Source of the DNA: Anaerolineae bacterium | Lineage (GTDB): Bacteria; Chloroflexota; Anaerolineae; B4-G1 | Reading direction: 5' to 3' | DNA: 9,777 bases | Assembly (NCBI GenBank): GCA_030612585.1 | Contig: JAUWNP010000165.1 | Span: 1 to 9,777, forward strand | Shown: piece by piece, positions 1-9,777 of the stretch | How positions within the stretch are numbered: position 1 is the stretch's first letter | Layout: every line of letters starts with the position of its first letter | The notes under the pieces: generated by a model | What the model saw: only the letters and a program-made list of their open reading frames with translations | The model's database searches: none | What the model was told of the DNA's origin: nothing | Program-made: the position numbers and the translations under genes

Positions 1-128
1 TTGAGTGTCAACGTGCGCGAGAACGCACCATAGAGCCGCTCCTGGAACAGGTATTCGACGTTCTCCAAAGGCGGCCGCAACTCGCCCCGGATGGTCAGAG
101 TATCACCCTCGATGATAATATCTACCTC
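1..128 (-). pseudogene. Hsp20/alpha-crystallin small heat-shock protein, 5'-truncated remnant, runs off the window
   Basis: The minus-strand frame from 128 to the left edge reads like the middle of an alpha-crystallin domain: EVDIIIEGDTLTIRGE, then a PP linker, then YLFQERLYGAFSRTLTL. This matches the family pattern in which a hydrophobic strand, the L-T-I-R-G-E strand and the Q-E-R-x-Y-G-x-F-x-R strand follow in order. Small heat-shock proteins hold unfolded proteins for refolding by Hsp70. The N-terminal arm and the expected P-G-V-x-x-E-D segment are missing. Upstream in the same frame the codons give a Cys/Leu-rich string and run through a terminator hairpin, and neither other frame restores homology. 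No plausible start codon or ribosome binding site lies at the junction. I therefore call it a broken gene. A chimeric assembly joint, or an intact gene starting with an odd fused N-terminus (an in-frame GTG at 215), are less likely alternatives. The C-terminal part lies outside the window. Confidence 0.7.
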
Positions 129-164
129 AAGAAAAAGACAACACCCCTGCGCACACCGCAGGGG
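129..164 (-). terminator. Intrinsic terminator of the kinase/phosphatase/FHA cassette
   Basis: On the minus strand an 8-bp perfect stem (CCCCTGCG at 164-157 pairing with CGCAGGGG at 151-144) closes a 5-nt loop and is followed by a T-rich tract (TGTTGTCTTTTTCTT, 143-129). This is a typical Rho-independent layout. It lies about 290 nt past the stop of the last cassette gene and is the only good terminator seen downstream of it. The Hsp20 remnant begins at the base immediately after the T-tract. Confidence 0.7.
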
Positions 165-223
165 CGACAGCAAAACAATAGCCAGAGAATCCGTGGGTTT
201 CCGCCACCGCGCCACAGATAGAT

Positions 224-252
224 GTCAGCCGCCAACTGCTGACCGCTAACTG
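224..252. repeat. Dispersed repeat, copy A (partner at 7205-7233)
   Basis: The plus strand reads GTCAGCCGC, a 5-nt variable part, GCTGAC, one variable base, then GCTAACTG. The segment at 7205-7233 has the same layout and aligns without gaps at 25 of 29 positions. Both copies sit just downstream of coding regions on the same strand. This suggests a multicopy intergenic element rather than chance similarity. The number of copies elsewhere in the genome cannot be seen here. Confidence 0.6.
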
Positions 253-277
253 GTCGTAAGCGTTCACGTGGGGGCCA

Positions 278-374
278 AGAAACCGGGTTTTTCGTACAGG
301 AAGACCTCCCTGGCAGCGGAAAAGCACCTGCTAGCAATACTACTTCGCCTGTGGAGCACAAAAACCCGGTTTCT
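278..374. repeat. 15-bp perfect inverted repeat pair around a 67-nt spacer
   Basis: AGAAACCGGGTTTTT at 278-292 is repeated exactly in reverse complement at 360-374. With a one-base bulge the pairing extends by two more G-C pairs at the outer end (CC at 275-276 against GG at 375-376). Each arm also has an imperfect palindromic core (AAACC-GGTTT). The pair could form a long stem in RNA from either strand, or mark two oppositely oriented copies of one short interspersed repeat. No transposase is nearby. Confidence 0.65.
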
Positions 375-454
375 GGTCTATCTCCTGAACGGATGCAACT
401 GCTCTTGGCGGAAGTTTCACGGTGAGCAGGCATCACCAGCAATCCCAGCGCACG

Positions 455-697
455 TCACTCGCGGATAAAACTGATGATTTTCTCCTCCTTCTCGCCGGGC
501 AGGATCTCCACGCAGTGGATGCGCGTCCAGGGATAGATCACTGTATTGGTTTCAGGGAGAATATAGGATACATCGCGCCCGTCACGTAGCCGAACATTGC
601 TTACAATCAGTACCTGGTCGTTGGGCTCAGGAACACGCTCCACCTCCGCCACAACGGCATCCTCGTTCAGCAGATGGATCATCACAGTTTGAGACAT
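455..697 (-). CDS. Conserved-looking small protein of unknown function (80 aa)
   Basis: I do not recognise a named family. The ATG at 697 is preceded by a near-perfect Shine-Dalgarno (AGGAGG, about 8 nt upstream), so it is almost certainly translated. The product is acidic with alternating hydrophobic residues, suggesting mostly beta strands: V-M-I-H-L-L, A-V-V-A-E-V-E, Q-V-L-I-V-S-N, V-S-Y-I-L, T-V-I-Y-P-W, H-C-V-E-I-L-P. There is a central charged turn (RLRDGRD, residues 36-42) and an aromatic P-W-T-R-I motif near residues 56-60. It has no signal peptide, membrane segment or cysteine pair, so it is probably cytoplasmic. A small barrel fold (Sm- or OB-like) would fit the length and strand pattern, but this is a guess. 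It is the last gene of the cassette, 31 nt after the FHA gene, so it probably works with the phospho-signalling proteins. Confidence 0.85.
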   Translation of the reverse strand: MSQTVMIHLLNEDAVVAEVERVPEPNDQVLIVSNVRLRDGRDVSYILPETNTVIYPWTRIHCVEILPGEKEEKIISFIRE

Positions 698-728
698 ACG
701 CCACCCTCCTGATACCGTTCACCGCTTA

Positions 729-1238
729 TTACTGAATCATAACTTCCAGTTCGATACGGCCCAACTGAAGCGTGTCCCCATCATTGAGCACGTGAGGCAA
801 GTAGGGAGTCAGACGCTGCCCATTCAAGAAGGTGCCGTTGGCACTGCCAACATCCTCGACCATGTAAGCCGAGCCTCGCTGATGAATCTTGCAGTGGCGG
901 CGGGAGGCGCCACCATCAAGCCCTCCATCAGGAGTGAGATCCAGATCGGGGAAGATGCCATGAGCCGCATCAAGACGCCCGATGTGCACCTCGGGAGCAG
1001 GTGGCATTTGGATCTGGCGACCAGTGGACAGTACCTTGACGTACAATGACACACGAGGTGCCTCGTCGGTCTCCTCCACAGGCTCGCTGGCCCACGGATT
1101 TGCTCGCGAAATAGGCAACTCCTCTTCGGGGAGAGGCTCAGTCCGCAGAGGACCACCAGTGGGTAAATACACTCCACACTCGCCGCAGAACAATGTACCA
1201 GGACGGTGTTTACGCCCGCAAGATGGACATTCAATCAT
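729..1238 (-). CDS. Zinc-ribbon plus FHA domain protein (phosphothreonine reader)
   Basis: The 169-residue product starts with a four-cysteine zinc ribbon (CPSC at 4-7 and CGEC at 18-21). An acidic, proline-rich linker (about residues 30-60) follows, then a C-terminal forkhead-associated domain (about 62-169). The phosphopeptide-contacting FHA signatures are intact: I-G-R at 86-88, S-R-R-H at 112-115 and N-G-T-F-L-N-G at 134-140. FHA domains bind phosphothreonine peptides, so the likely ligand is a protein phosphorylated by the kinase encoded at 3608-5575. The ATG overlaps the end of the J/VWA gene by 8 nt (the upstream TGA lies just inside the new frame), with GGAG about 8 nt before the start, which indicates translational coupling. 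There is no membrane segment, so the protein should be cytoplasmic. The zinc ribbon may dock onto a partner or nucleic acid, but which is not visible. Confidence 0.93.
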   Translation of the reverse strand: MIECPSCGRKHRPGTLFCGECGVYLPTGGPLRTEPLPEEELPISRANPWASEPVEETDEAPRVSLYVKVLSTGRQIQMPPAPEVHIGRLDAAHGIFPDLDLTPDGGLDGGASRRHCKIHQRGSAYMVEDVGSANGTFLNGQRLTPYLPHVLNDGDTLQLGRIELEVMIQ

Positions 1239-2715
1239 GAGACTTTCTCCGTGAAGTAATAGTCAAACTGCGTGTGCCGTACTTGAGTTCTTTGCGTCCT
1301 CTGGCCGTCGGATCACCGCCCTTAGTGATGCGCCCAGCCTCCAGCATTGCCGACCGGGCCAACTGGACCTCTCCCAGAGCGAACAGGCGCGTGGCCACCA
1401 TCTCCAGTTGGCGGGTTGCCGCGTTGGCGTCTCCACTCTCCAGCACATCCCAGGCCCGCTCTTGCATACGATAGAGAGTGATTTTGGTCAACGCGCCCAG
1501 AATGGACGGCGGCACCGGTTCGGGCGGCGACGCAGTAGATGTGAAGGTGAAGCGAATATCGCGCCGCAGTTTATCCCCCTGACGACCTAAGGCCGGTATA
1601 TCACCCGTGAGTTCAAGTTGCAGTAGCCGATGATCTCCGACTGGCTTTTGGGCCACGCCCACCTCCAATACGATGGACAATGGTACGTCAGCTTGCACGG
1701 CCCCCAGGCTGATCACATTGTCGGCCGGAGTGAAACGTTCCAGGTAGGGCGAGATACGAAACGCGCTTTCTATCCACACACCCTCAGCGCAGAGGGTCTC
1801 CAGCGTCAATCCTTGAGCAAAGACGGCCCCCAGGCCACGCACCCTCTGCTGTAGCAATGCACGCACCTGGCCAGGCGACGCGATGTAAGCAGAGACCCCT
1901 CCGCTTTGGGCTGCGATCTCATCAAGCAAGGCGTCGTTCCAATCCTCGCCTATGCCCATTGCCGTGATGCCGATGCGTCGTGCCCCTGCCTGTCGGGCCT
2001 CGGCTATGCAATCTTCCTCATCACCGTAGGTCTGACCATCGGTGAGCAGGATCAAGTGGCTGGTGATCTGCTTGCCATGGCGCTTTCCAAGTTCCTCCAG
2101 TCCGACCCGTATACCTTGCAGAATCTCAGTTCCACCACTGGCCCAGATGGTTGAGACTCTGGCCTTAGCACGAGCACGGTTGACACCCAACTGGCTGGGC
2201 AGCACGACCTCGGCCCGGTCGTGAAAAGTGACCACTGCCAGGGCATCATCGTCGTGCAGTTCATCAATGATCTGGTGTGCCGCTCCCTTGACGTGTTCCA
2301 GCCGCGCTCCCTGCATCGAGGTGCTGCGATCAATCACCAGACACAAGTTGAGCGGGAGACGTTCGCCCCGCACGGCTGCAGCCGGCTGTACCTTTATCAA
2401 GAGATAGACAACCTGCTCCTCGTAGAGAGAACAGAGTTGGTTATGACTCGACAGAATCTCCCAGGAAAGCGCCGCTTCCTCGCCCGACCCTGACTCGGTC
2501 CGTCGGCGGTCGTAGGCACGGCGGCGATGCAGATCGCCCAGGACAACGTAGGCTGTCTGGACGTCGTGGAACAATGCCGTTGGGACAGCCTCTACCCGAC
2601 TGTCGGGATGATAACGGCGCGCCAGTGTGCGATAGGCGCGCTTAATATCCTCGTCCGTCGCGGATTGAGGCACCCCTAGTACGGCGTAGTAGTCCTTCTC
2701 GATGTCCATGCTCAT
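1231..2715 (-). CDS. J-domain/VWA fusion protein
   Basis: The 494-residue protein begins with a J domain (about residues 7-72): D-Y-Y-A-V-L-G-V, then H-P-D at 36-38 and an R-R-A-Y-D-R helix end. The HPD tripeptide is the family feature that stimulates Hsp70 ATPase. A VWA domain follows (about 120-290) with an intact MIDAS metal site: D129-x-S131-x-S133, T196 in a G-G-T turn and T225-D226-G. A beta-rich region (about 300-395) and a helical tail (about 405-465) come next, ending in a basic segment with a K-Y-G-T-R motif near 478-482. No signal peptide or membrane helix is seen, so it should be cytoplasmic. The start lies 5 nt after the PP2C stop and the end overlaps the FHA start, so it is the centre of a coupled operon. 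I infer that VWA binds a client or partner through a divalent metal while the J domain recruits DnaK. It lacks the G/F, zinc and C-terminal domains of DnaJ, so it is not dnaJ itself. Confidence 0.93.
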   Translation of the reverse strand: MSMDIEKDYYAVLGVPQSATDEDIKRAYRTLARRYHPDSRVEAVPTALFHDVQTAYVVLGDLHRRRAYDRRRTESGSGEEAALSWEILSSHNQLCSLYEEQVVYLLIKVQPAAAVRGERLPLNLCLVIDRSTSMQGARLEHVKGAAHQIIDELHDDDALAVVTFHDRAEVVLPSQLGVNRARAKARVSTIWASGGTEILQGIRVGLEELGKRHGKQITSHLILLTDGQTYGDEEDCIAEARQAGARRIGITAMGIGEDWNDALLDEIAAQSGGVSAYIASPGQVRALLQQRVRGLGAVFAQGLTLETLCAEGVWIESAFRISPYLERFTPADNVISLGAVQADVPLSIVLEVGVAQKPVGDHRLLQLELTGDIPALGRQGDKLRRDIRFTFTSTASPPEPVPPSILGALTKITLYRMQERAWDVLESGDANAATRQLEMVATRLFALGEVQLARSAMLEAGRITKGGDPTARGRKELKYGTRSLTITSRRKSHD

Positions 2716-2720
2716 ATGCC

Positions 2721-3584
2721 CTAACTCAGTGGCGGTTCTACCAGGATGGCAGTGATATTGTCACATCCTCCAGCCTGATTTGCAGCAGCGACCAGACTCT
2801 CGCACGCTGCCTGAAGCGAGGAGGAGGTCAAAACAATGTTGGCTATCTCTGCCTCACTCACCATGCCCCACAGTCCATCGCTGCAGAGCAGCAGCCGCCC
2901 CCCAGGGGGAATAGTTCGCACGTAGGTATCCACTTCCAGCACACCGCTCTGGCCGACGGCGCGGTAGAGCACGTTCTTGTGCGGATGAACAGCGGCTTCG
3001 TCGCGGGTAAGTTGCCCCAACTCAACCAGACGGTCTACTAGCGAATGATCATGGGTGATCTGGTCCAATCCCTCCTCTGTGACAACGTAAGCCCGGCTAT
3101 CGCCCACGTGGGCGATGTAGGCTCGCGGGCCAAGCACCAGCGCACAGGTCAGGGTCGTTCCTCCACCAGGCACTCGATCCGCCACAGCACTATTGGCCGC
3201 CTGCACCGCGTCTACGAGCACCTCGTTCAAGGGAGGTTGGTTAGCGTCGTGCTCCTGGCTGATGAGAGTGAGCAGATAAAATTGGCGTATGACGTGATGA
3301 ACCACGACTCGCGCTGCCAGAGAACTGGCAACCTCTCCGCCCTGCTGTCCCCCCATGCCGTCGGCCATGACGAAAATCCCGAACGCCGGTTCTACAGCGT
3401 CACTGCCGTGGGCGGCCGTGACAATCAACGCCGTATCCTCATTATGCCGACGCACTTCACCCACATCGGTAACCCATCCGACCTCAAGCCTGGGCTGAGT
3501 GGATACCGCCACAGGTGGGGACGGGGGACTCGCAGGAGGGGTAGATGTCTTCCCCATTCCTAAAAGGTTACGTATGAATTGCAT
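2721..3584 (-). CDS. PP2C-family protein serine/threonine phosphatase
   Basis: The 287-residue product is a soluble metal-dependent phosphatase that should reverse phosphorylation by the linked kinase. The classic motifs appear in order: R-R-H-N-E-D at 45-50, M-A-D-G-M-G-G at 73-79 (metal-binding D75), G-G-T-T-L at 141-145, H-V-G-D-S-R-A at 159-165, T-H-D-H-S at 177-181, C-S-D-G-L-W-G at 234-240 (D236) and G-C-D-N-I-T at 273-278 (D275). The metal ligands are all present, so it should be active. About 30 residues of Pro/Ser/Thr-rich N-terminal extension (P-P-A-S-P-P-S-P-P) precede the domain and could be flexible or a phosphorylation target. No membrane segment is present. The ATG start has only a weak ribosome binding site. 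The gene lies 23 nt after the kinase stop and 5 nt before the J/VWA start, so it is likely expressed by read-through and coupling. Confidence 0.96.
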   Translation of the reverse strand: MQFIRNLLGMGKTSTPPASPPSPPVAVSTQPRLEVGWVTDVGEVRRHNEDTALIVTAAHGSDAVEPAFGIFVMADGMGGQQGGEVASSLAARVVVHHVIRQFYLLTLISQEHDANQPPLNEVLVDAVQAANSAVADRVPGGGTTLTCALVLGPRAYIAHVGDSRAYVVTEEGLDQITHDHSLVDRLVELGQLTRDEAAVHPHKNVLYRAVGQSGVLEVDTYVRTIPPGGRLLLCSDGLWGMVSEAEIANIVLTSSSLQAACESLVAAANQAGGCDNITAILVEPPLS

Positions 3585-3607
3585 AACTCTAATTCAACTC
3601 TCAGGTC

Positions 3608-5575
3608 TCAGGCAGAGAGCGCATACACGTGACGGTCTGTTGATCCAATGTAGATCACGCCATCCACCACCGTGGGTGACGACGTCACCGGCCCATCAGT
3701 CTGAAAGCGCCACCGCAAGGCGCTCGTTTGAGCATCCAGGCTATAGATAGCCCCATCTACTGAGCCAAAATATACCACTCCATCGGCCACGGCAGGGGAG
3801 GAGGTCACCTGACCATCCGTAGCGTAGCGCCAGGCGAGATGTCCACCCTCGGCGTCCAGAGCATACAGGTAACCATCTACCGAACCAATGAAGACCAGAT
3901 CCCCGCTGACAACAGGTGAGGACACGACCGCTCCGCCAGTGCGATAGCGCCACGCCGGATAACCCGAGCGGATGTCCAGGCCGTAGACGTACCAGTCCTG
4001 GCAACCCACATAGACGCTCCCCTCAGCGAGGGCAGGAGAGGAAGTCACGCCGCGCCGGGCGCGAAAGCGCCAGCGCAATTGACCACTGATGTTCACAGCA
4101 TAGACCATTCCCCCCTCACATCCCACGTAGATGGCTTCATTTCCAATGGCTGGCGACGAGCGCACCGGTCCATCCGCTTTGAAGGTCCAGGCAACGCGGC
4201 CGCTACGGATATTGGCCGCATAGAGATGCTGGTCGTCTGAGCCGAAGAATACGTGACCAAACGCGACCTGGGGTGATGACCACACGCCGCCTTGGGTGGG
4301 GCAAGTCCACGAGATGCGCCCCGTATCCGCGTTGATCGCGTAGAGCACCCGGTCAGCAGAGCCGACGAACACATGCCCTTCATGCACACAGGGGGACGAG
4401 GCAATACCCCCCTCAGTGGGATACTTCCATAGGAACTTCCCATTATCGGCATCAATGGCGTAGAGATTGTGGTCGTAAGCGCCGATGTAAACGACGCCGT
4501 TATGCACCGCTGGCGAGGAGCGGACCTCATCCTCGCAGACGAAACGCCACAGGGCCACGACGTCGCCGCTGATAAAGGCCGGAGCGCCGAAGGGGGCTGT
4601 TCCGCCTATGCCACGGGCCGAACTCAGGCTCATTAGCGCGCGCTGCATCTCTTCGGCCGAGCCGTAGCGATCGTTGATGTCATATTCCAGCGCCTTGTTG
4701 ACAATCTCCATCAGTTCACGGGAAACGAGGGGATTCGTCTTGTGAATAGGGCGCTCGTGGAAGGAAAACGGCGGGTCCAGTTGCGGATCATGCTTGCTGA
4801 GCAGATGATGCATCGTAGCCCCCAGGGCATAGATGTCTACCCGCGGTTCCGCGCTGCCTCGATACTGCTCAGGCGGCGAGTAGCCCTCGGTGCCGATCAT
4901 AGTGCCCTTCTGGCCGCTCTGGAAGATTCTGGCGATTCCAAAGTCCACCAGCCGAATGCGGCCGTGGTTATCGAGCATGATATTGACAGGCTTGATGTCA
5001 CGAAAGACGATTGGCTGCGGTTCGTGGCTATGCAGATAACTCAGCACTTCGCAGATCTGGATGGCCCAATGCACCACCCGTGCCTCCGGCAAAAAGCCCC
5101 CGGTCTCGGCCAGGATGGCCCCCAGGTTTTTGCCCTCCACATATTCAACGACGAGGTAACTGCGTTCACCTTCAGTGAAGTAGTCGTAAATCTGAACGAC
5201 GGCCGGGTGACTGAGCGTGGCAAGAATGTTGGCTTCGCGCTCGAAATTCTGCACCATCATAGCCCGCACCTGGGGATCGGTAGCGGTGTTGAACATCTCC
5301 CTGACGGCACACAATCGAGTAACGTTAGGGAAACGCAGGTCCTGGGCCTTGTAAACGGCGCTCATGCCGCCAATGCCCAACATCCCTAGGACGCGGTAGC
5401 GGTTCTGAAGCAAGTGACCCTCGGAAAGTTGGCCCTCAATACGTTCGAGTGGCTGGACTGAGGCCGGCGTCCTTCCTGAGATATCTGGCTCCCGTGCAAC
5501 AGGTGCGCTGGAAGAAGAACCGGCTACCGAAATGTGATGGGTCTCAAGGGACTTCATACTTGGGTTCACTTTCAC
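3608..5575 (-). CDS. Serine/threonine protein kinase with C-terminal eight-bladed PQQ-like propeller
   Basis: The 655-residue protein has a low-complexity N-terminal tail (1-55), a eukaryotic-like kinase domain (about 58-320) and a C-terminal propeller (about 340-655). Kinase motifs seen are the glycine loop G67-I-G-G-M-S-A-V, E113 in the F-E-R-E-A helix, the catalytic loop F191-R-D193-I-K195-P-V-N198, D211-F-G and the Y-S-P-P-E activation end near 232-236. Two departures stand out: the VAIK lysine is arginine (A90-V-R92-E) and HRD reads FRD. Eight S-S-P motifs at residues 353, 393, 433, 473, 512, 552, 592 and 632 mark blades of about 40 residues. There is no membrane helix between the two parts, so the propeller stays in the cytoplasm and may sense or recruit a ligand or protein. 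Translation begins at GTG 5575, with ATG 5557 as an alternative; neither has a strong ribosome binding site. It is the first gene of the cassette. Confidence 0.93.
   Translation of the reverse strand: MKVNPSMKSLETHHISVAGSSSSAPVAREPDISGRTPASVQPLERIEGQLSEGHLLQNRYRVLGMLGIGGMSAVYKAQDLRFPNVTRLCAVREMFNTATDPQVRAMMVQNFEREANILATLSHPAVVQIYDYFTEGERSYLVVEYVEGKNLGAILAETGGFLPEARVVHWAIQICEVLSYLHSHEPQPIVFRDIKPVNIMLDNHGRIRLVDFGIARIFQSGQKGTMIGTEGYSPPEQYRGSAEPRVDIYALGATMHHLLSKHDPQLDPPFSFHERPIHKTNPLVSRELMEIVNKALEYDINDRYGSAEEMQRALMSLSSARGIGGTAPFGAPAFISGDVVALWRFVCEDEVRSSPAVHNGVVYIGAYDHNLYAIDADNGKFLWKYPTEGGIASSPCVHEGHVFVGSADRVLYAINADTGRISWTCPTQGGVWSSPQVAFGHVFFGSDDQHLYAANIRSGRVAWTFKADGPVRSSPAIGNEAIYVGCEGGMVYAVNISGQLRWRFRARRGVTSSPALAEGSVYVGCQDWYVYGLDIRSGYPAWRYRTGGAVVSSPVVSGDLVFIGSVDGYLYALDAEGGHLAWRYATDGQVTSSPAVADGVVYFGSVDGAIYSLDAQTSALRWRFQTDGPVTSSPTVVDGVIYIGSTDRHVYALSA
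3611..4558 (-). repeat. Eight coding repeats of about 120 bp (propeller blades)
   Basis: Within the kinase gene, a unit encoding the pattern V-x-S-S-P-x-V-x-x-G-x-V-Y-x-G-S-x-D-x-x-L-Y-A-x-D-x-x-x-G-x-x-x-W recurs eight times, spaced 40 residues apart (39 once). The units are diverged at the DNA level, so this is an old protein repeat rather than a recent tandem duplication. The A-L-W-R-F strand at residues 341-345 precedes blade one, and the last unit ends at its Y-A-L strand without its own W strand. This fits the usual ring closure in which N- and C-terminal strands complete one blade. Confidence 0.85.
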
Positions 5576-5599
5576 GCTTCACGTATCACGTCTGATATA

Positions 5600-5627
5600 A
5601 TTATAAGCCAAATGGGCAAACATGCAA
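5600..5627 (-). promoter_or_regulatory. Sigma-70-type promoter of the kinase cassette
   Basis: The minus strand carries a perfect TATAAT (5605-5600) preceded by TTGCAT (5627-5622) with a 16-nt spacer. The -35 match is weak (3 of 6), so an activator may help. A start near 5593 would leave only about 17 nt of leader before the GTG of the kinase gene. This is the only convincing promoter I found ahead of the five-gene cassette. Confidence 0.6.
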
Positions 5628-5637
5628 TTGGACATGA

Positions 5638-5657
5638 GTACCATTAATGGTGTACCA
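5638..5657. promoter_or_regulatory. Operator-like palindrome and direct repeats upstream of the cassette promoter
   Basis: A perfect 12-bp palindrome (ACCATTAATGGT, 5640-5651) is overlapped on both sides by the direct repeat GTACCA (5638-5643 and 5652-5657, 14 nt apart). It lies about 10 bp upstream of the -35 element, roughly at -45 to -65 relative to the inferred start. That is a usual place for an activator when the -35 box is poor. No regulator gene is present in the window to assign it to. Confidence 0.4.
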
Positions 5658-5705
5658 CGGTCAGCGTAGGCAGCGGTACGGCGACGGAACAGGTGAAGTC
5701 GAGGT

Positions 5706-7136
5706 CTATTGCAAGGGATTGAAATAGTTGTAGGTGGCAGTAGCGATGTTGGCTATAAGGGATGCACTTTCCTCCCATTCCAGCCACTCAGGGCGATAGA
5801 AAAAGACCACCAGCACAAAATCGCCGCCCGGGCTGAATACAAGCGCCGCGTCGGCGTGCGTGTCACTGGTCCAGCCGTGTTTGTGCGCTACGCTGGTTCC
5901 CACTGGAACCCCGGCCTCGATGAGGCTATCAATACGGTTCATAGCCATCCACTCGATCATCTGCCCACACTCATCAGCGGTAAAAGCACCAGGGTAAGCA
6001 GCCATCAGTGCACCGCCGCCGTGGCTGCACTGATAGATCATCTCCAACAGCAACCCCACGTCCAGCGGTGTAGTCTGCATATAGGGATCAGGCTCGGTGG
6101 TGATGTCGGTACGGGAATTGGCCGGGGTGACGATAGTCGGCGGGATGCTCTCCTCCTCGTCGTAGGGGGTCGCCATGAAGGTATTGACCAACCCCAGGCG
6201 GAGCATCGAGTCGGTGAGGTTCTTGGCCCCCTGGTCCCCATCGCCGTCGTCAATGACGTCACGCAGCAACGAGTTGGCAGCGACATTCTCACTGAGTGTC
6301 ATCGTCTCACTGAGCAACCCGGTCATTTCGACGTCTGGACTACGGTCGAGGACGCGGTAGGTTTCTTCCAGGACGGCAATCTTGAGCACATCCAATCCAG
6401 CGTAGGCGACGTCAGCATTGATCCCCAATTCGTCCCCGGTTGTCAAACCCTTGACGAAGATGCCTGGTATCAGGCCTTCGTGACCATCCAGGAGAGACTG
6501 GAGTAACTGGCCCAGCACCTCCATATTCAGTGGTGGCGCTTCCTCCGTCCGCACGACCAATTCGACTTGCCGGTCGGTAGGCGAGACCAGGACGGCAGCG
6601 AGCCGGGCACGAGAGGCCTCGACGTCAAGTTCGCTACCTGGCTGGCCAACGCGGAAGGTCAGGCTGGCTGGGAGTGGGACCGGCTCCTGCGGCAGCCGAT
6701 CATACTGCCTGACGACGCGAGCCAGAAAGCCATCAAGCCGCTCGTCCGAGTAACTGACCGCCACAGAGATGTCCACTGGGTCGGGAGGGCGACGCAGAAG
6801 GTGAGCCATGAAGCCATTGAGCCCACCCCGTGCAGCCAGCACCGCGTCCAGATTGGCCTCTGTCTCCTCGGCGTTGTAGCGCAACTCGACGCTATCGAGG
6901 GACAGAGACAGCCGCTGCTCCTGGTACGTAAGTTCCACGGGTGTGGAAAAGGCCACTTCGAGAACATTCAGCACCTGTTCGCGCGTCTTCCCCTCCACCG
7001 GCATATCGGCCACTGTCATACCAGCGGGCAAGGTACGGCTGGCCGAGAGATAGTCGAAGTACTGCCAGGTGAGGAAGAGTGCAGCGACAGCGAGAATGAG
7101 AATGATCCAGGCAATACATCCGGTTATACGCCGCAA
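5706..7136 (-). CDS. Membrane-anchored class A beta-lactamase-fold protein, nucleophile replaced (probable pseudoenzyme)
   Basis: The 476-residue protein starts with an N-terminal membrane anchor (about residues 7-28, arginines in front). The next ~170 residues resemble the peptidoglycan-binding-type repeats found before VanW domains (A-G-M-T-V-A-D-M-P-V-E-G-K-T-R-E-Q at 38-54). A class A beta-lactamase/penicillin-binding fold (about 205-476) follows. Of its three active-site motifs, S-x-N (S282-E-N284) and K-x-G (K419-H-G421, in H-K-H-G-W-T) are present, but the S-x-x-K nucleophile motif reads D249-V-L-K252, codon GAT at 6392-6390. Serine acylation should therefore be impossible. The likely location is the outer face of the membrane, in a cell-wall binding or structural role. 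The start is TTG at 7136, chosen because GGAGG lies 7 nt upstream, the anchor begins right there, and no ATG or GTG precedes the anchor. It has its own promoter, so it is a separate unit from pyrG. Confidence 0.88.
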   Translation of the reverse strand: MRRITGCIAWIILILAVAALFLTWQYFDYLSASRTLPAGMTVADMPVEGKTREQVLNVLEVAFSTPVELTYQEQRLSLSLDSVELRYNAEETEANLDAVLAARGGLNGFMAHLLRRPPDPVDISVAVSYSDERLDGFLARVVRQYDRLPQEPVPLPASLTFRVGQPGSELDVEASRARLAAVLVSPTDRQVELVVRTEEAPPLNMEVLGQLLQSLLDGHEGLIPGIFVKGLTTGDELGINADVAYAGLDVLKIAVLEETYRVLDRSPDVEMTGLLSETMTLSENVAANSLLRDVIDDGDGDQGAKNLTDSMLRLGLVNTFMATPYDEEESIPPTIVTPANSRTDITTEPDPYMQTTPLDVGLLLEMIYQCSHGGGALMAAYPGAFTADECGQMIEWMAMNRIDSLIEAGVPVGTSVAHKHGWTSDTHADAALVFSPGGDFVLVVFFYRPEWLEWEESASLIANIATATYNYFNPLQ

Positions 7137-7166
7137 GGAATTCCCTCCACTTCGCAGATACAGGAG

Positions 7167-7195
7167 ATTATAGCACAGGTATGAGTGTGCGCCAA
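7167..7195 (-). promoter_or_regulatory. Strong sigma-70-type promoter of the beta-lactamase-fold gene
   Basis: The minus strand has TTGGCG (7195-7190), a 17-nt spacer and a perfect TATAAT (7172-7167) preceded by TGC, an extended -10 element. The inferred start near 7160 gives a leader of about 24 nt carrying GGAGG before the TTG start codon. It lies between the pyrG stop and the next gene, so that gene need not depend on pyrG transcription. Confidence 0.75.
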
Positions 7196-7201
7196 GCGTG
7201 C

Positions 7202-7227
7202 GCAGTCAGCCGCTAGCGGCTGACTGC
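7202..7227. repeat. 26-bp perfect palindrome over the pyrG stop codon
   Basis: The 13-nt arm GCAGTCAGCCGCT is followed immediately by its exact reverse complement, with no spacer. Its right end overlaps the last base of the pyrG stop. In RNA it would fold into a strong GC-rich hairpin, but no U-tract follows on the minus strand, so it is a poor intrinsic terminator. It could protect the 3' end of the pyrG message or act as a protein-binding site. It overlaps repeat copy B. Confidence 0.7.
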
Positions 7228-7233
7228 TAACTG
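7205..7233. repeat. Dispersed repeat, copy B (partner at 224-252)
   Basis: This segment aligns without gaps to 224-252 at 25 of 29 positions (GTCAGCCGC, GCTGAC and GCTAACTG are identical). It runs into the 3' end of pyrG, so the stop codon and the last residues (D-S-S) lie in or beside repeat sequence. In this copy the variable middle makes the palindrome at 7202-7227 perfect; in copy A it does not. Confidence 0.6.
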
Positions 7234-8846
7234 CTGTCTAGCGCGCCCTCGTACCGGGCGACGGCCGCAGCGATGAAGGCGTTGAAAAGAGGATGAGGCC
7301 GGTTGGGGCGAGACCTGAACTCAGGGTGAAACTGACTACCGATCATAAAGGGATGATCGGCCAGTTCGGCGATCTCGATCAGTCGCCCGTCAGGTGAGAG
7401 CCCGCTAAACACGAGCCCCGCCTCTGCCAGCATGTCACGGTAGGCGTTGTTCACCTCGAAGCGGTGACGATGCCGCTCCTGAACCTCCGACTCACCGTAG
7501 GCCGCGGCCGCTTTCGTCCCAGGCACCAGGCGGCAGGGATACAAGCCCAACCGCATCGTGCCGCCCAGATCCACGATCGTTCGCTGCTCGGGCATCAGGT
7601 CAATCACAGGATACCTGGTGTGAGGGTCAAACTCGGTGCTGTTCGGTTCCTCGCTGCCCAGGACATGACAAGCCAGTTCGATGATCATCACCTGCAAGCC
7701 CAGGCACAGCCCCAGGTAGGGAACCCCGTTCTCTCGCACCCAACGCGCTGTGGCGATCTTGCCTTCGATGCCCCGGTAGCCAAAGCCGCCGGGCACGACC
7801 ACGCCGGCCATCTTTTCCAGTTCATCCCAGCCCCGGCCACGCTCAAGTTCCTCGGAACTGACGTAGTGCACAGCGGCGTCCCACCCGTGTGCCAGGGCTG
7901 CGTGGCACAGCGCCTCACGCACACTGATGTAGGCGTCGTGGAGTTCGACGTATTTGCCGACGATGGCAATGGGCAGCGACGGCTTGGGAGTGCGGATGCG
8001 AGCCACAAGTTCGCGCCACTCCCCCAGGTCAGGGGCCTCCGTCTCCAGCCTCAGCCGCTCGACGATGAAGTCGCCCAGACCGGCATCCTCCAGGATCAGT
8101 GGTATCTCATACAGCACCGGCGCGGTCACCAGCGGGACGACGGCCCGCTGCTCGACGTCGCAGAAAAGCGCGATTTTGTCACACAGCGCGCCATCCACCG
8201 GGTAGTCAGCGCGAGCGATGATAACGTCGGGCTGGATACCGATGGAACGCAGTTCGCGCACGCTGTGCTGAGTGGGTTTGGTTTTTAATTCACCGGTAGC
8301 ACCGATGTGGGGCAGGAAAGTGACGTGGATGTAAAGCGTGTTCTCAAACCCCACGTCCCGGCGCATCTGCCTCAACGCCTCCAAGAAGGGCAACCCCTCA
8401 ATGTCGCCGACCGTGCCGCCGACCTCGACAATCACCACCTCGGCTCCGCTCCGCTCGCCGACTAACGCGATGCACCGCTTGATCTCATTGGTGATGTGCG
8501 GGATGACCTGGATGGTGCCCCCCAGGAAGTCGCCCCGGCGCTCCCGGGCGATGACCTCCGCGTATACCTGGCCAGCAGTGACGTTGCTGGCCTGGGTCAG
8601 GTTCTCGTCAATGAAACGCTCGTAATGCCCCAGGTCCAGGTCGGTCTCGGCACCGTCGTCAGTGACGAATACCTCACCGTGCTGGTAGGGAGACATCGTC
8701 CCCGGGTCCACGTTGATGTAGGGGTCGAGTTTCTGGATGGAGACACGTACGCCCCGTGCCTTCAACACCCGGCCGACGGAAGCAGCCGCCACCCCTTTGC
8801 CCACACTGCTGATCACCCCGCCGGTGCAAAAAATATACTTACGCAT
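7227..8846 (-). CDS. pyrG: CTP synthase (glutamine-hydrolysing)
   Basis: PyrG makes CTP from UTP, ATP and glutamine, the last step of de novo pyrimidine nucleotide synthesis, in the cytosol. With the start at 8846 it has 539 residues, normal for the family (about 530-550). The N-terminal synthetase domain opens with [18 protein letters not shown], including the ATP-binding loop. The segment [20 protein letters not shown] is also characteristic. The C-terminal class I glutamine amidotransferase domain has P-G-G-F-G-Y-R-G, the nucleophile Cys381 in G-L-C-L-G-L-Q, and the catalytic pair H507/E509 in Q-F-H-P-E-F. An ATG at 8855 is a close alternative, adding three residues. A longer form from GTG 8945 adds about 30 unrelated residues and is unlikely. 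The probable promoter is at 9125-9153, upstream of a 36-codon ORF, so pyrG would be the second frame on that transcript. Confidence 0.97.
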
Positions 8847-8873
8847 TGCTCTCATCCGACTTTCAAGAGAAGC

Positions 8874-8903
8874 GGGGAGGATCGCTCGGGGGCGACTCTC
8901 CCC
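8874..8903 (-). promoter_or_regulatory. Hairpin in the pyrG leader, just upstream of the ribosome binding region
   Basis: In the minus-strand transcript GGGGAG (8903-8898) pairs with CUCCCC (8879-8874). After one A-C mismatch and a G-U pair, UCGC/GCGA closes a 6-nt loop. The base of the stem is about 18-27 nt before the candidate start codons. The downstream bases (GCUUCUCUUG) are pyrimidine-rich but not a clean U-tract, so it may be a weak attenuator or simply an mRNA structure. Confidence 0.4.
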
Positions 8904-8935
8904 ACACATGAATGGAACTGACTTCACAACATCCG

Positions 8936-8958
8936 CTGAGCCCACAAATCTGGCTCAG
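8936..8958 (-). promoter_or_regulatory. Second leader hairpin with an alternative pairing partner
   Basis: CTGAGCC and GGCTCAG form a 7-bp stem with a 9-nt loop in the noncoding leader between the 36-codon ORF and pyrG. A further GAGCC copy in the transcript (plus-strand GGCTC at 8962-8966) could pair with the same downstream arm, so two mutually exclusive structures are possible. No regulatory outcome can be read from sequence alone. Confidence 0.3.
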
Positions 8959-8983
8959 ATTGGCTCTGTTCCCTCCACACAGG

Positions 8984-9094
8984 CTACGAAGTGCCTACAG
9001 AAAAGCAGCCAAGTCCTCGGCTGTCCGCGTCAGGCGTGCTGGCCTGCAGATCTCGTAGCCGATCTACCAGCAGTTCCGTGCGTGACTTCGCCAT
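8984..9094 (-). pseudogene. 36-codon ORF, truncated roadblock/LC7-like start or leader ORF ahead of pyrG
   Basis: An ATG at 9094 preceded by AAGGAG (6 nt gap) opens a frame reading M-A-K-S-R-T-E-L-L-V-D-R-L-R-D-L-Q-A-S-T-P-D and stopping at TAG 8984-8986. The first ~22 residues resemble the N-terminal helix of roadblock/LC7 proteins as I remember them (an L-R-D-L-x-A-S-T-P-D motif). The following hydrophobic strand and the rest of the ~120-residue fold are absent. A +1 shift near codon 23 gives R-T-A-E-D-L-A-A-F-L and then stops, so no simple frameshift restores a full gene. A strong promoter sits about 24 nt upstream of the ATG. Readings, in order of preference: a gene remnant after a deletion, a genuine small protein, or a leader ORF influencing pyrG. 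The signals argue that it is translated. Confidence 0.5.
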
Positions 9095-9124
9095 CCTCGT
9101 CTCCTTAACCTATACCTGCGATGC

Positions 9125-9153
9125 ACTATATCACAAGTCCTGTGCAGTGTCAA
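9125..9153 (-). promoter_or_regulatory. Strong sigma-70 promoter upstream of the short ORF and pyrG
   Basis: The minus strand reads a perfect TTGACA (9153-9148), a 17-nt spacer and TATAGT (9130-9125), preceded by TGA, an extended -10. The expected start near 9118 leaves a leader of about 23 nt with a strong ribosome binding site for the 36-codon ORF. No comparable promoter is visible between that ORF and pyrG, so pyrG probably depends on this one. Confidence 0.8.
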
Positions 9154-9215
9154 ATGCTCCAAGCGCACGACGAAATCTCGAAAGGAATCCCGAAAATCCC
9201 CACCGTCGTCGCCGA

Positions 9216-9777
9216 CTAGGCGTCGGATGCACGAGAACCCGGTACTCGCCTACTCTGGCGGGACTTTACAGCCGCCGCCTCACGGATGCGCTCCCACGCG
9301 GTCTGGACCGCCGCCAGGTCCTCCGGTCGCTCGGGTACTTCTCCGTAGTGCACGGCGACGTAGGCTTCGGTAATGAGTGTCACGTCCTCACGGTTGTTGG
9401 GGAAAGAGCGCTCAAGAGTCGGCAGGTACTCGTATGGGGTCTCGTAGGGAACGCGGGGGTAGCCCCGCTCTGCGGCCAGAGCGCCCATATGGGCATAGAT
9501 GCGGCGGATCGTCATAGCGGCGAGGACCCGCCCCACGAGGGAGCGGCTCAAGGCGGCGGCTGCCCCGCCCAGTCGGCGGCGTCCACGCCGCAGCACGTCG
9601 CGCAGGCGGCGGCGCAGATGCACCCCCTCCCACACCGCCTCACGCTCCTCGCCACGACGCCGCCCGGCCCGCACACGCAGCCGACGGAGTGAGAGAGCCA
9701 CCAGCAACAGCAGGAATAGCACCCCTACGATGATGCCGACCGCCCTCGCCAGCGCCAGTTGGTCGGCTGTGAAGAGC
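9216..9777 (-). CDS. DUF4129 membrane protein, C-terminal part (N-terminus outside the window)
   Basis: The frame is open to the right edge, so only the last ~186 residues are seen. A membrane helix near the edge (A-V-G-I-I-V-G-V-L-F-L-L-L-L-V-A-L) is followed by a very arginine-rich stretch of about 45 residues, as expected on the cytoplasmic side. A DUF4129-like domain comes next: R-G-Y-P-R-V-P-Y-E-T-P-Y-E-Y-L, then L-I-T-E-A-Y-V-A-V-H-Y-G and a final A-W-E-R-I helix. In many bacteria DUF4129 forms the C-terminus of membrane transglutaminase-type proteins with extracellular catalytic domains, but that part cannot be checked here. A GTG at 9722 lies inside the membrane helix and is not the start. 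A small inverted repeat overlaps the stop, without a T-tract. The gene ends about 60 nt before the promoter of the next unit. Confidence 0.8.
   Translation of the reverse strand, partial: LFTADQLALARAVGIIVGVLFLLLLVALSLRRLRVRAGRRRGEEREAVWEGVHLRRRLRDVLRRGRRRLGGAAAALSRSLVGRVLAAMTIRRIYAHMGALAAERGYPRVPYETPYEYLPTLERSFPNNREDVTLITEAYVAVHYGEVPERPEDLAAVQTAWERIREAAAVKSRQSRRVPGSRASDA

Follow-up and report, generated by a model that had tools for sequence, protein, structure and literature searches.

What would a protein kinase, a phosphatase, a J-domain protein, a phosphothreonine reader and a small protein of no recognized family be doing side by side in one bacterial gene cluster? We asked this of a 9,777-nucleotide (nt) stretch from an Anaerolineae bacterium (contig JAUWNP010000165.1, positions 1 to 9,777, of assembly GCA_030612585.1; this whole stretch is referred to hereafter as the window, and coordinates are those of the window), in which a same-strand cassette encodes a kinase ending in a PQQ-type β-propeller, a PP2C-family phosphatase, a protein combining J and VWA domains (J/VWA), a zinc-ribbon–FHA protein and an 80-amino-acid (80-aa) protein. 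The answer that we favor, with a probability of a little under one half (roughly 0.48), is that the cassette is a cytoplasmic phosphothreonine signaling operon, found mainly in Anaerolineae and working by the mechanism set out below. In the openly accessible literature, as far as its available text extends, we recognized no paper describing this cassette.

Five genes and a linked regulator keep their order across distant relatives

A sequence-only reading of the window had described five same-strand genes spaced, from the kinase to the 80-aa gene, by 23, 5, −8 and 31 nt, and both the open reading frames (ORFs) and their domain matches bear this out. Relatives were collected by a one-genome-per-species scan with a J/VWA protein profile via two peptide patterns, LLTDGQTY (the region of the metal-ion-dependent adhesion site, MIDAS) and GRKE[LI]KYG (ending directly ahead of the tail threonine discussed below). 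The scan gave 112 confirmed relatives, the best 80 of which serve here as loci (L and P numbers denote relative loci and protein sequences). Relatives of the window are named Anaerolineae, Thermoflexia or Chloroflexi. The relatives' ORFs come from a simple ORF picker, so that some starts are wrong and some ORFs spurious (suspect examples being the short J/VWA of L002, the long J/VWA of L035 and several ORFs in the GC-rich L081–L083 and L090).

All five genes stand in the canonical order (kinase-propeller, PP2C, VWA, zinc-ribbon–FHA, 80-aa protein) in 64/80 loci and, where the VWA gene has ≥3.3 kb of sequence ahead of it and ≥1 kb behind it, in 51/58; counted singly, the VWA gene is present in 80 loci, FHA in 77, kinase and PP2C in 73 each, and the 80-aa gene in 72. 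Identity of the VWA protein to that of the window runs from 78% down to 31% over the aligned set, hence the conserved order is not a close-relative effect, and the sequence-only reading survives the refutation by order that it had set itself. This recurrence of the cassette in unchanged order, together with 321 homologues of the 80-aa ORF (E ≤ 1e-3), places the five-gene set above chance. Spacing is also tight, with median gaps of 14, 3, −4 and 19 nt along the cassette and an overlap of the VWA and FHA genes in 62/77 loci. The seven exceptions with enough flank are L003 and L004 (no PP2C), L067 (FHA fused or frameshifted) and L076, L077, L078 and L080; the last four are without the 80-aa gene and fall within a J-less group that also holds records named Planctomycetota, Armatimonadetes and Caldithrix. 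We did not use the apparent J/VWA–FHA fusion (P0008, L067) as proof of binding, since the two genes overlap and one indel would fuse them.

A sixth gene commonly follows. An OmpR-type response regulator gene begins no more than 200 nt past the 80-aa gene in 51 of the 64 loci where that gene is followed by ≥800 nt of sequence (≤60 nt in 48 of the 51, −4 to +6 nt in 40). For one member (L047) we scanned the regulator's domains, PF00072 and PF00486; across the 51, the receiver aspartate is conserved in ≥97%. Because the order is kept across distant relatives and a gene-switch gene usually comes next, the cassette is probably one unstudied signaling machine.

Writer, eraser and reader residues are conserved together

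The proposal that the genes supply a writer, an eraser, a phosphothreonine reader and a VWA adaptor as a set holds up, these genes being conserved together with near-invariant binding residues. The phosphothreonine-binding Arg88, Ser112, His115 and Asn134 of the FHA domain are present in the window and in 77/77 loci, and the zinc-ribbon cysteines in 76/77 (the Zn_ribbon_3 match scores 23.6 bits, below its cut-off of 27). Metal-binding aspartates of the phosphatase are kept in 71–73 of 73 loci, the remainder being gaps; its score against the NCBIfam Stp1/IreP model, 228 bits, narrowly misses the cut-off of 230. The MIDAS residues of the VWA domain are found in 79–80 of 80 loci, a count biased upward because one retrieval pattern lies in that region.

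The kinase has no obvious transmembrane segment (maximum 19-residue hydropathy 1.51) and possesses the αC glutamate, the catalytic-loop Asp/Lys/Asn and the DFG aspartate, all of which are kept in 120/120 of its best relatives (the best 120 of 7133). It fails at one position, with Arg92 in place of the ATP-binding lysine of the VAIK motif. Lysine occupies this position in 118 of the 120 relatives and in 63/63 loci with that segment, arginine recurring in P0241 (95% identical) and P0247; a lone base error is thus unlikely, given that so close a relative as P0241 shares the arginine. Lys-to-Arg substitution at the VAIK position usually cripples kinases, and the writer role of the window copy is therefore in doubt, while the family looks sound.

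A near-invariant tail threonine is a candidate docking site

The J/VWA protein consists of a J domain (residues ~8–69, with an intact His-Pro-Asp (HPD) motif), a VWA domain (residues 123–276, with an intact MIDAS) and a C-terminal part, near the end of which lies the motif K-x-[ILV]-[KR]-Y-x-T-R-x-L. The threonine of this motif (Thr481 in the window) is found in 79/79 loci with the segment (L063 being truncated), the arginine at +1 in 78 and the leucine at +3 in 77. As 70/80 loci were matched by the MIDAS-region pattern alone, the threonine count does not depend on the second pattern. The whole motif recurs in 118/120 close relatives (of the other two, one has Arg for Lys and one is truncated), and in an alignment of 42 diverse sequences, with records named Planctomycetota, Armatimonadota and Caldithrix among them, Thr481 occupies one of the 25 columns that are invariant. 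The +3 residue is one for which FHA domains are often selective.

Extra VWA copies inform on the same motif: 13 VWA proteins in 8 stretches of 7 Chloroflexota genomes, 8 of them with T-R-x-L. Three of these eight adjoin an FHA gene (L097, L103, L104), such that every extra VWA protein next to an FHA gene (3/3) retains the motif. The other five form a second kind in which GRKT, ARKT or TRKT replaces T-R-x-L, and around those of L098 and L099 no kinase, PP2C or FHA match was found within 14 kb. This pattern is in keeping with docking of the FHA protein at the motif, a reading weakened by FHA-less cases (given below). These copies (L097–L104) come from Chloroflexota genomes with three VWA matches each, and one kind among them has lost the tail T-R-x-L.

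The J domain is the least constrained part of the cassette

In the sequence-only reading, the J domain could hand phospho-marked clients to DnaK. Its HPD motif is intact in the window and in 62/80 loci, and in 115/119 close relatives with the segment (lost in 4/119); in six loci the domain is J-like but has no HPD (L015, L017, L051, L054, L071, L072), nine have no J domain, and a further three (L002, L049, L070) are broken, truncated or unclear. Pfam DnaJ scores of the five HPD-less domains scanned are 57 bits (L015), 69 (L017), 27 (L051), 27 (L054) and 24 (L072), two of which pass the cut-off of 27.8. Among the 64 full loci, 54 have HPD, 6 a J-like domain without it, 3 no J domain and 1 an unclear state. 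On a rapidly built tree covering the VWA part (78 rows, with L002, L063 and L070 excluded, and several long branches that leave its details unsure), J presence changes twice and the HPD-less J requires four changes, three of these forced by well-supported branches. Judged from these sequences, fusion with a J domain characterizes one section of the family and is seen, among these loci, only in Chloroflexota. DnaK hand-off is plausible and not part of a constant core, given the loci that lack J or HPD; it is likely in most members, not all.

These data bear directly on the alternative, a strengthened form of what the sequence-only reading proposed, that J/VWA acts mainly as a co-chaperone, wherein the kinase and FHA protein would mark damaged clients, the VWA domain hold them and the J domain pass them to DnaK, with Hsp20 as holdase. 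The prevalence of HPD is what this account would expect, as are the same-strand Hsp20 genes among the examined neighbors of 10/80 loci (one member scanned) and the window's own incomplete Hsp20 frame; however, Hsp20 is a minority neighbor only, and all six HPD-less loci, along with 3/9 of those without J, retain the other four genes. We regard the co-chaperone account as doubtful, and as the alternative that survives best.

The 80-aa protein is modeled as an LSm-like barrel and also occurs outside the full cassette

No Pfam or NCBIfam family matches the 80-aa protein at E ≤ 0.01. Its AlphaFold2 model is a small barrel with a predicted local distance difference test (pLDDT) score of 89.5, superseding an earlier model of pLDDT 73, and in fold comparison Sm/LSm domains (EDC3, Trailer hitch, archaeal SmAP) rank top with moderate scores. 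Unlike those domains, the model has no N-terminal helix, and a profile search against PDB sequences gave a single match (E 0.83, not Sm), with no solved Sm protein matched. We therefore describe it, on the strength of the model, as a predicted, conserved LSm-like family. The gene is present in 131/400 Chloroflexota genomes, one copy each. Divergent relatives with C-terminal extensions were also seen in other Chloroflexota genomes (L081, L082, L091), beside or near what we take to be topA.

Casting this protein as a partner of the other four, as the sequence-only reading did, fits its conservation in the cassette and is tempered by its occurrence without an adjoining VWA gene, beside the kinase alone in 6 of 15 such stretches. 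Such cases are the substance of a second alternative, in which the genes form a loose neighborhood, co-inherited for regulation while serving separate pathways, the 80-aa protein having an unrelated role. In 55/131 genomes there is, among the matches listed, no VWA match just before the 80-aa gene, and in 3/15 stretches the gene lies near the apparent topA; FHA and PP2C proteins, moreover, often have many partners. Against this, overlaps and short gaps persist at low protein identity, and the pairings recur, kinase with the 80-aa gene as above and FHA with the 80-aa gene in 3 of the 15. A loose neighborhood is, on balance, distinctly unlikely.

Comparison with known systems

In the comparisons that follow, citations refer to the available parts of each paper. 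By analogy, the closest systems in logic appear to be AfsK–AfsR and PpkA–PppA–Fha, and not TerY-P or type VI secretion. In Streptomyces, the transcription factor AfsR, which contains a Trans_reg domain, is a phosphorylation target of the PQQ-repeat kinase AfsK (PMC1262709). The window kinase is likewise a Hanks kinase followed by C-terminal PQQ-type repeats, and the linked OmpR-type regulator shares the Trans_reg domain; the NCBIfam AfsK model is not reached (256 bits, cut-off 1300). AfsK differs in being membrane-associated and AfsR in being a large NB-ARC/TPR protein, and the available text mentions no J/VWA, FHA or LSm-like partner gene (PMC1262709).

The PpkA–PppA–Fha set of type VI secretion also unites a kinase, a PP2C-type phosphatase, an FHA protein (Fha1) and a VWA domain, which in that pathway is carried by the membrane kinase PpkA (PMC3224232; described also in PMC1262709). 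We rejected membership of this threonine phosphorylation pathway because the VWA domain of the cassette is on the J protein rather than the kinase, and because the FHA protein misses the TagH cut-off (44.7 bits against 120.25). No secretion genes were found among the few neighbor families scanned, most neighbors having been clustered only. A Ser/Thr kinase and phosphatase acting on an OmpR-type regulator have a precedent in StkP/PhpP–RitR and similar systems, in which such regulators are phosphorylated by Ser/Thr kinases and RitR is bound by PP2C (PMC4601284); RitR, whose gene shares a transcript with another, has no receiver aspartate (PMC4601284), whereas the cassette-linked regulator retains it. 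An account of conflict systems describes, as separate themes within one class of them, DnaJ fusions beside HSP70/GrpE and kinase + PP2C + vWA sets (PMC7159879).

Searching with PADLOC matched the kinase to 32 kinase-type families (mostly PD-T4-6 among the 25 matches listed) and the phosphatase to one model (PDC-M21C), and gave no model for the J/VWA, zinc-ribbon–FHA or 80-aa proteins, on which grounds we rejected a defense system. Kinship to TerY-type stress systems, as first suggested, and with it the idea of a TerY-P-like stress or defense triad with swapped parts, is highly improbable: a VWA protein, PP2C and kinase are encoded together with a zinc ribbon in both (PMC11090510), yet in TerY-P the ribbon (an OB-fold in a variant) is C-terminal on the kinase (PMC11090510), whereas here the FHA protein carries the ribbon, a propeller forms the C-terminal part of the kinase, the VWA domain lies within a 494-aa multi-domain protein, the PADLOC matches are confined as just described and the 80-aa gene is single-copy in each of 131 genomes.

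A model for phosphothreonine signaling

We infer co-transcription of the cassette, the phosphosite, FHA docking, DnaK recruitment, regulator output, all contacts between the proteins and the direction of signal flow. The kinase would sense a signal via its β-propeller and then phosphorylate its partners, which PP2C would reset. J/VWA may be the main scaffold: phosphorylation of Thr481 in T-R-x-L would create a binding site for the zinc-ribbon–FHA protein. The VWA domain would use its metal site to hold a partner, and where a lineage has HPD, DnaK recruited by the J domain would remodel that partner. On the side of the kinase and FHA protein, the LSm-like 80-aa protein could serve as an adaptor, and transcriptional output would come from the response regulator, which is encoded next in most relatives and absent from the window. 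A more exacting version, a chaperone-gated switch found throughout Anaerolineae in which Thr481, phosphorylated in a kinase-dependent way, recruits the FHA protein, DnaK then remodels the VWA-bound partner and the LSm-like adaptor connects the complex with the co-encoded OmpR-type regulator, we consider unlikely as a whole.

Gene content, order, intact residues, the LSm-matched barrel model and the linked response regulator are the computed basis of the signaling operon. We favor it because of the order in 64/80 loci, the VWA/FHA overlaps, the regulator in 51/64 and the near-invariant residues, and because T-R-x-L is kept beside FHA genes, the 80-aa gene pairs with kinase or FHA genes, the 80-aa model is LSm-like and AfsK offers a parallel.

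Several observations weigh against this reading. Both retrieval patterns, at the MIDAS region and just before the tail threonine, bias conservation there. The window kinase carries Arg92; the window has no response regulator gene, which is also missing from 13/64 loci (L007, L013, L014, L019, L020, L022, L023, L024, L026, L049, L054, L075, L079); and HPD was lost more than once on the tree. The tail threonine could instead be structural. Five T-R-x-L VWA proteins (L100–L102) adjoin a PP2C gene with no FHA match in the stretch, two of the five second-kind proteins still have the threonine, and L078 retains it with no recognized partner. The contrast between the two VWA kinds is one of subfamilies, not of numerous independent events, and both kinds share the stretches L100–L102.

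Flanks and neighboring genes

The coordinates of the cassette and its surroundings are collected in Table 1.

Table 1. Features of the window; all lie on the minus strand.
Feature	Position (nt)	Strand	Length	Basis or remark
Hsp20, partial frame (N-terminal part not in frame), neighbor outside the core	3–137	−		Pfam HSP20 3.4e-4
Terminator-like hairpin, weak support	142–166	−		Terminator scan
80-aa protein, predicted Sm/LSm-like β-barrel	455–697	−	80 aa	AlphaFold2 model, fold matches
Zinc ribbon + FHA	729–1238	−	169 aa	Pfam FHA 9.6e-17, Zn_ribbon_3 3.5e-5
J domain + VWA + C-terminal part	1231–2715	−	494 aa	Pfam DnaJ 9.5e-19, VWA 2.7e-19
J/VWA Thr481 codon in C-terminal motif, candidate phospho-switch	1273–1275	−		Alignment of loci
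PP2C-family phosphatase, metal-binding Asp residues kept	2721–3584	−	287 aa	Pfam PP2C 7.5e-14
Kinase + PQQ-type β-propeller	3608–5575	−	655 aa	Pfam Pkinase 5.3e-42, Beta-prop_ACSF4 7.1e-75
Kinase codon 92, AGG (Arg where VAIK has its ATP-binding Lys)	5300–5302	−		Relatives' alignment
β-Lactamase-like protein, hydrophobic N-terminus	5706–7136	−		PF13354; upstream, 130 nt from kinase
CTP synthase	7227–8945	−		Upstream of cassette
DUF4129 protein	9216–9722	−		Upstream of cassette

That the genes lie behind one promoter and before one terminator, as had been proposed, finds no support beyond chance from a consensus scan and shuffled sequences. The scan called no sigma-70-type promoter at 5576–5705; a TATAAT is visible by eye on the minus strand at ~5600–5605, its −35 element being poor. 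Terminator-like sites in the window number 7 against a shuffled mean of 5.2 (standard deviation 2.1), not clearly above it, and the hairpin of Table 1 sits ~290 nt beyond the 80-aa gene. Downstream (3′) of that gene lie ~315 nt, including an imperfect 32-nt inverted repeat (261–391, with a AAACCGGGTTT-like core), and then the partial Hsp20 frame. A repeat search with two motifs out of window 1–455 gave no exact match in 96 loci, GAAACCGGGTTTTT included. The Hsp20 frame scores 21.1 bits against a Pfam cut-off of 20.8 and, with the terminator-like hairpin before it, reads as a fragment or contig-edge artefact.

On the other side, the β-lactamase-like gene is also upstream of the cassette in the close loci L002, L003, L004 and L005. 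Seven of the 13 loci without a regulator (L013, L019, L020, L023, L026, L049, L079) have a family of ~380–450 aa after the 80-aa gene, one member of which (L026) matches Pfam CpXC. Genes for Arf/Ras-like GTPases are among the examined neighbors in 8/80 loci (two members scanned).

Implications

Sets of kinase, phosphatase and FHA protein are known; what is added here is a fixed J/VWA scaffold, a candidate docking threonine, an LSm-like protein and a linked regulator. The cassette points to an LSm-like family, with no Pfam match, in about one-third of the 400 sampled Chloroflexota genomes, and the single predicted site would allow the target recognized by a bacterial FHA protein to be tested. 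Were the chaperone-gated switch true, Ser/Thr kinase signaling, Hsp70 and two-component output would converge in one operon. The cassette offers a circuit that is concrete and open to testing, from a bacterial group that is large and has been little studied.

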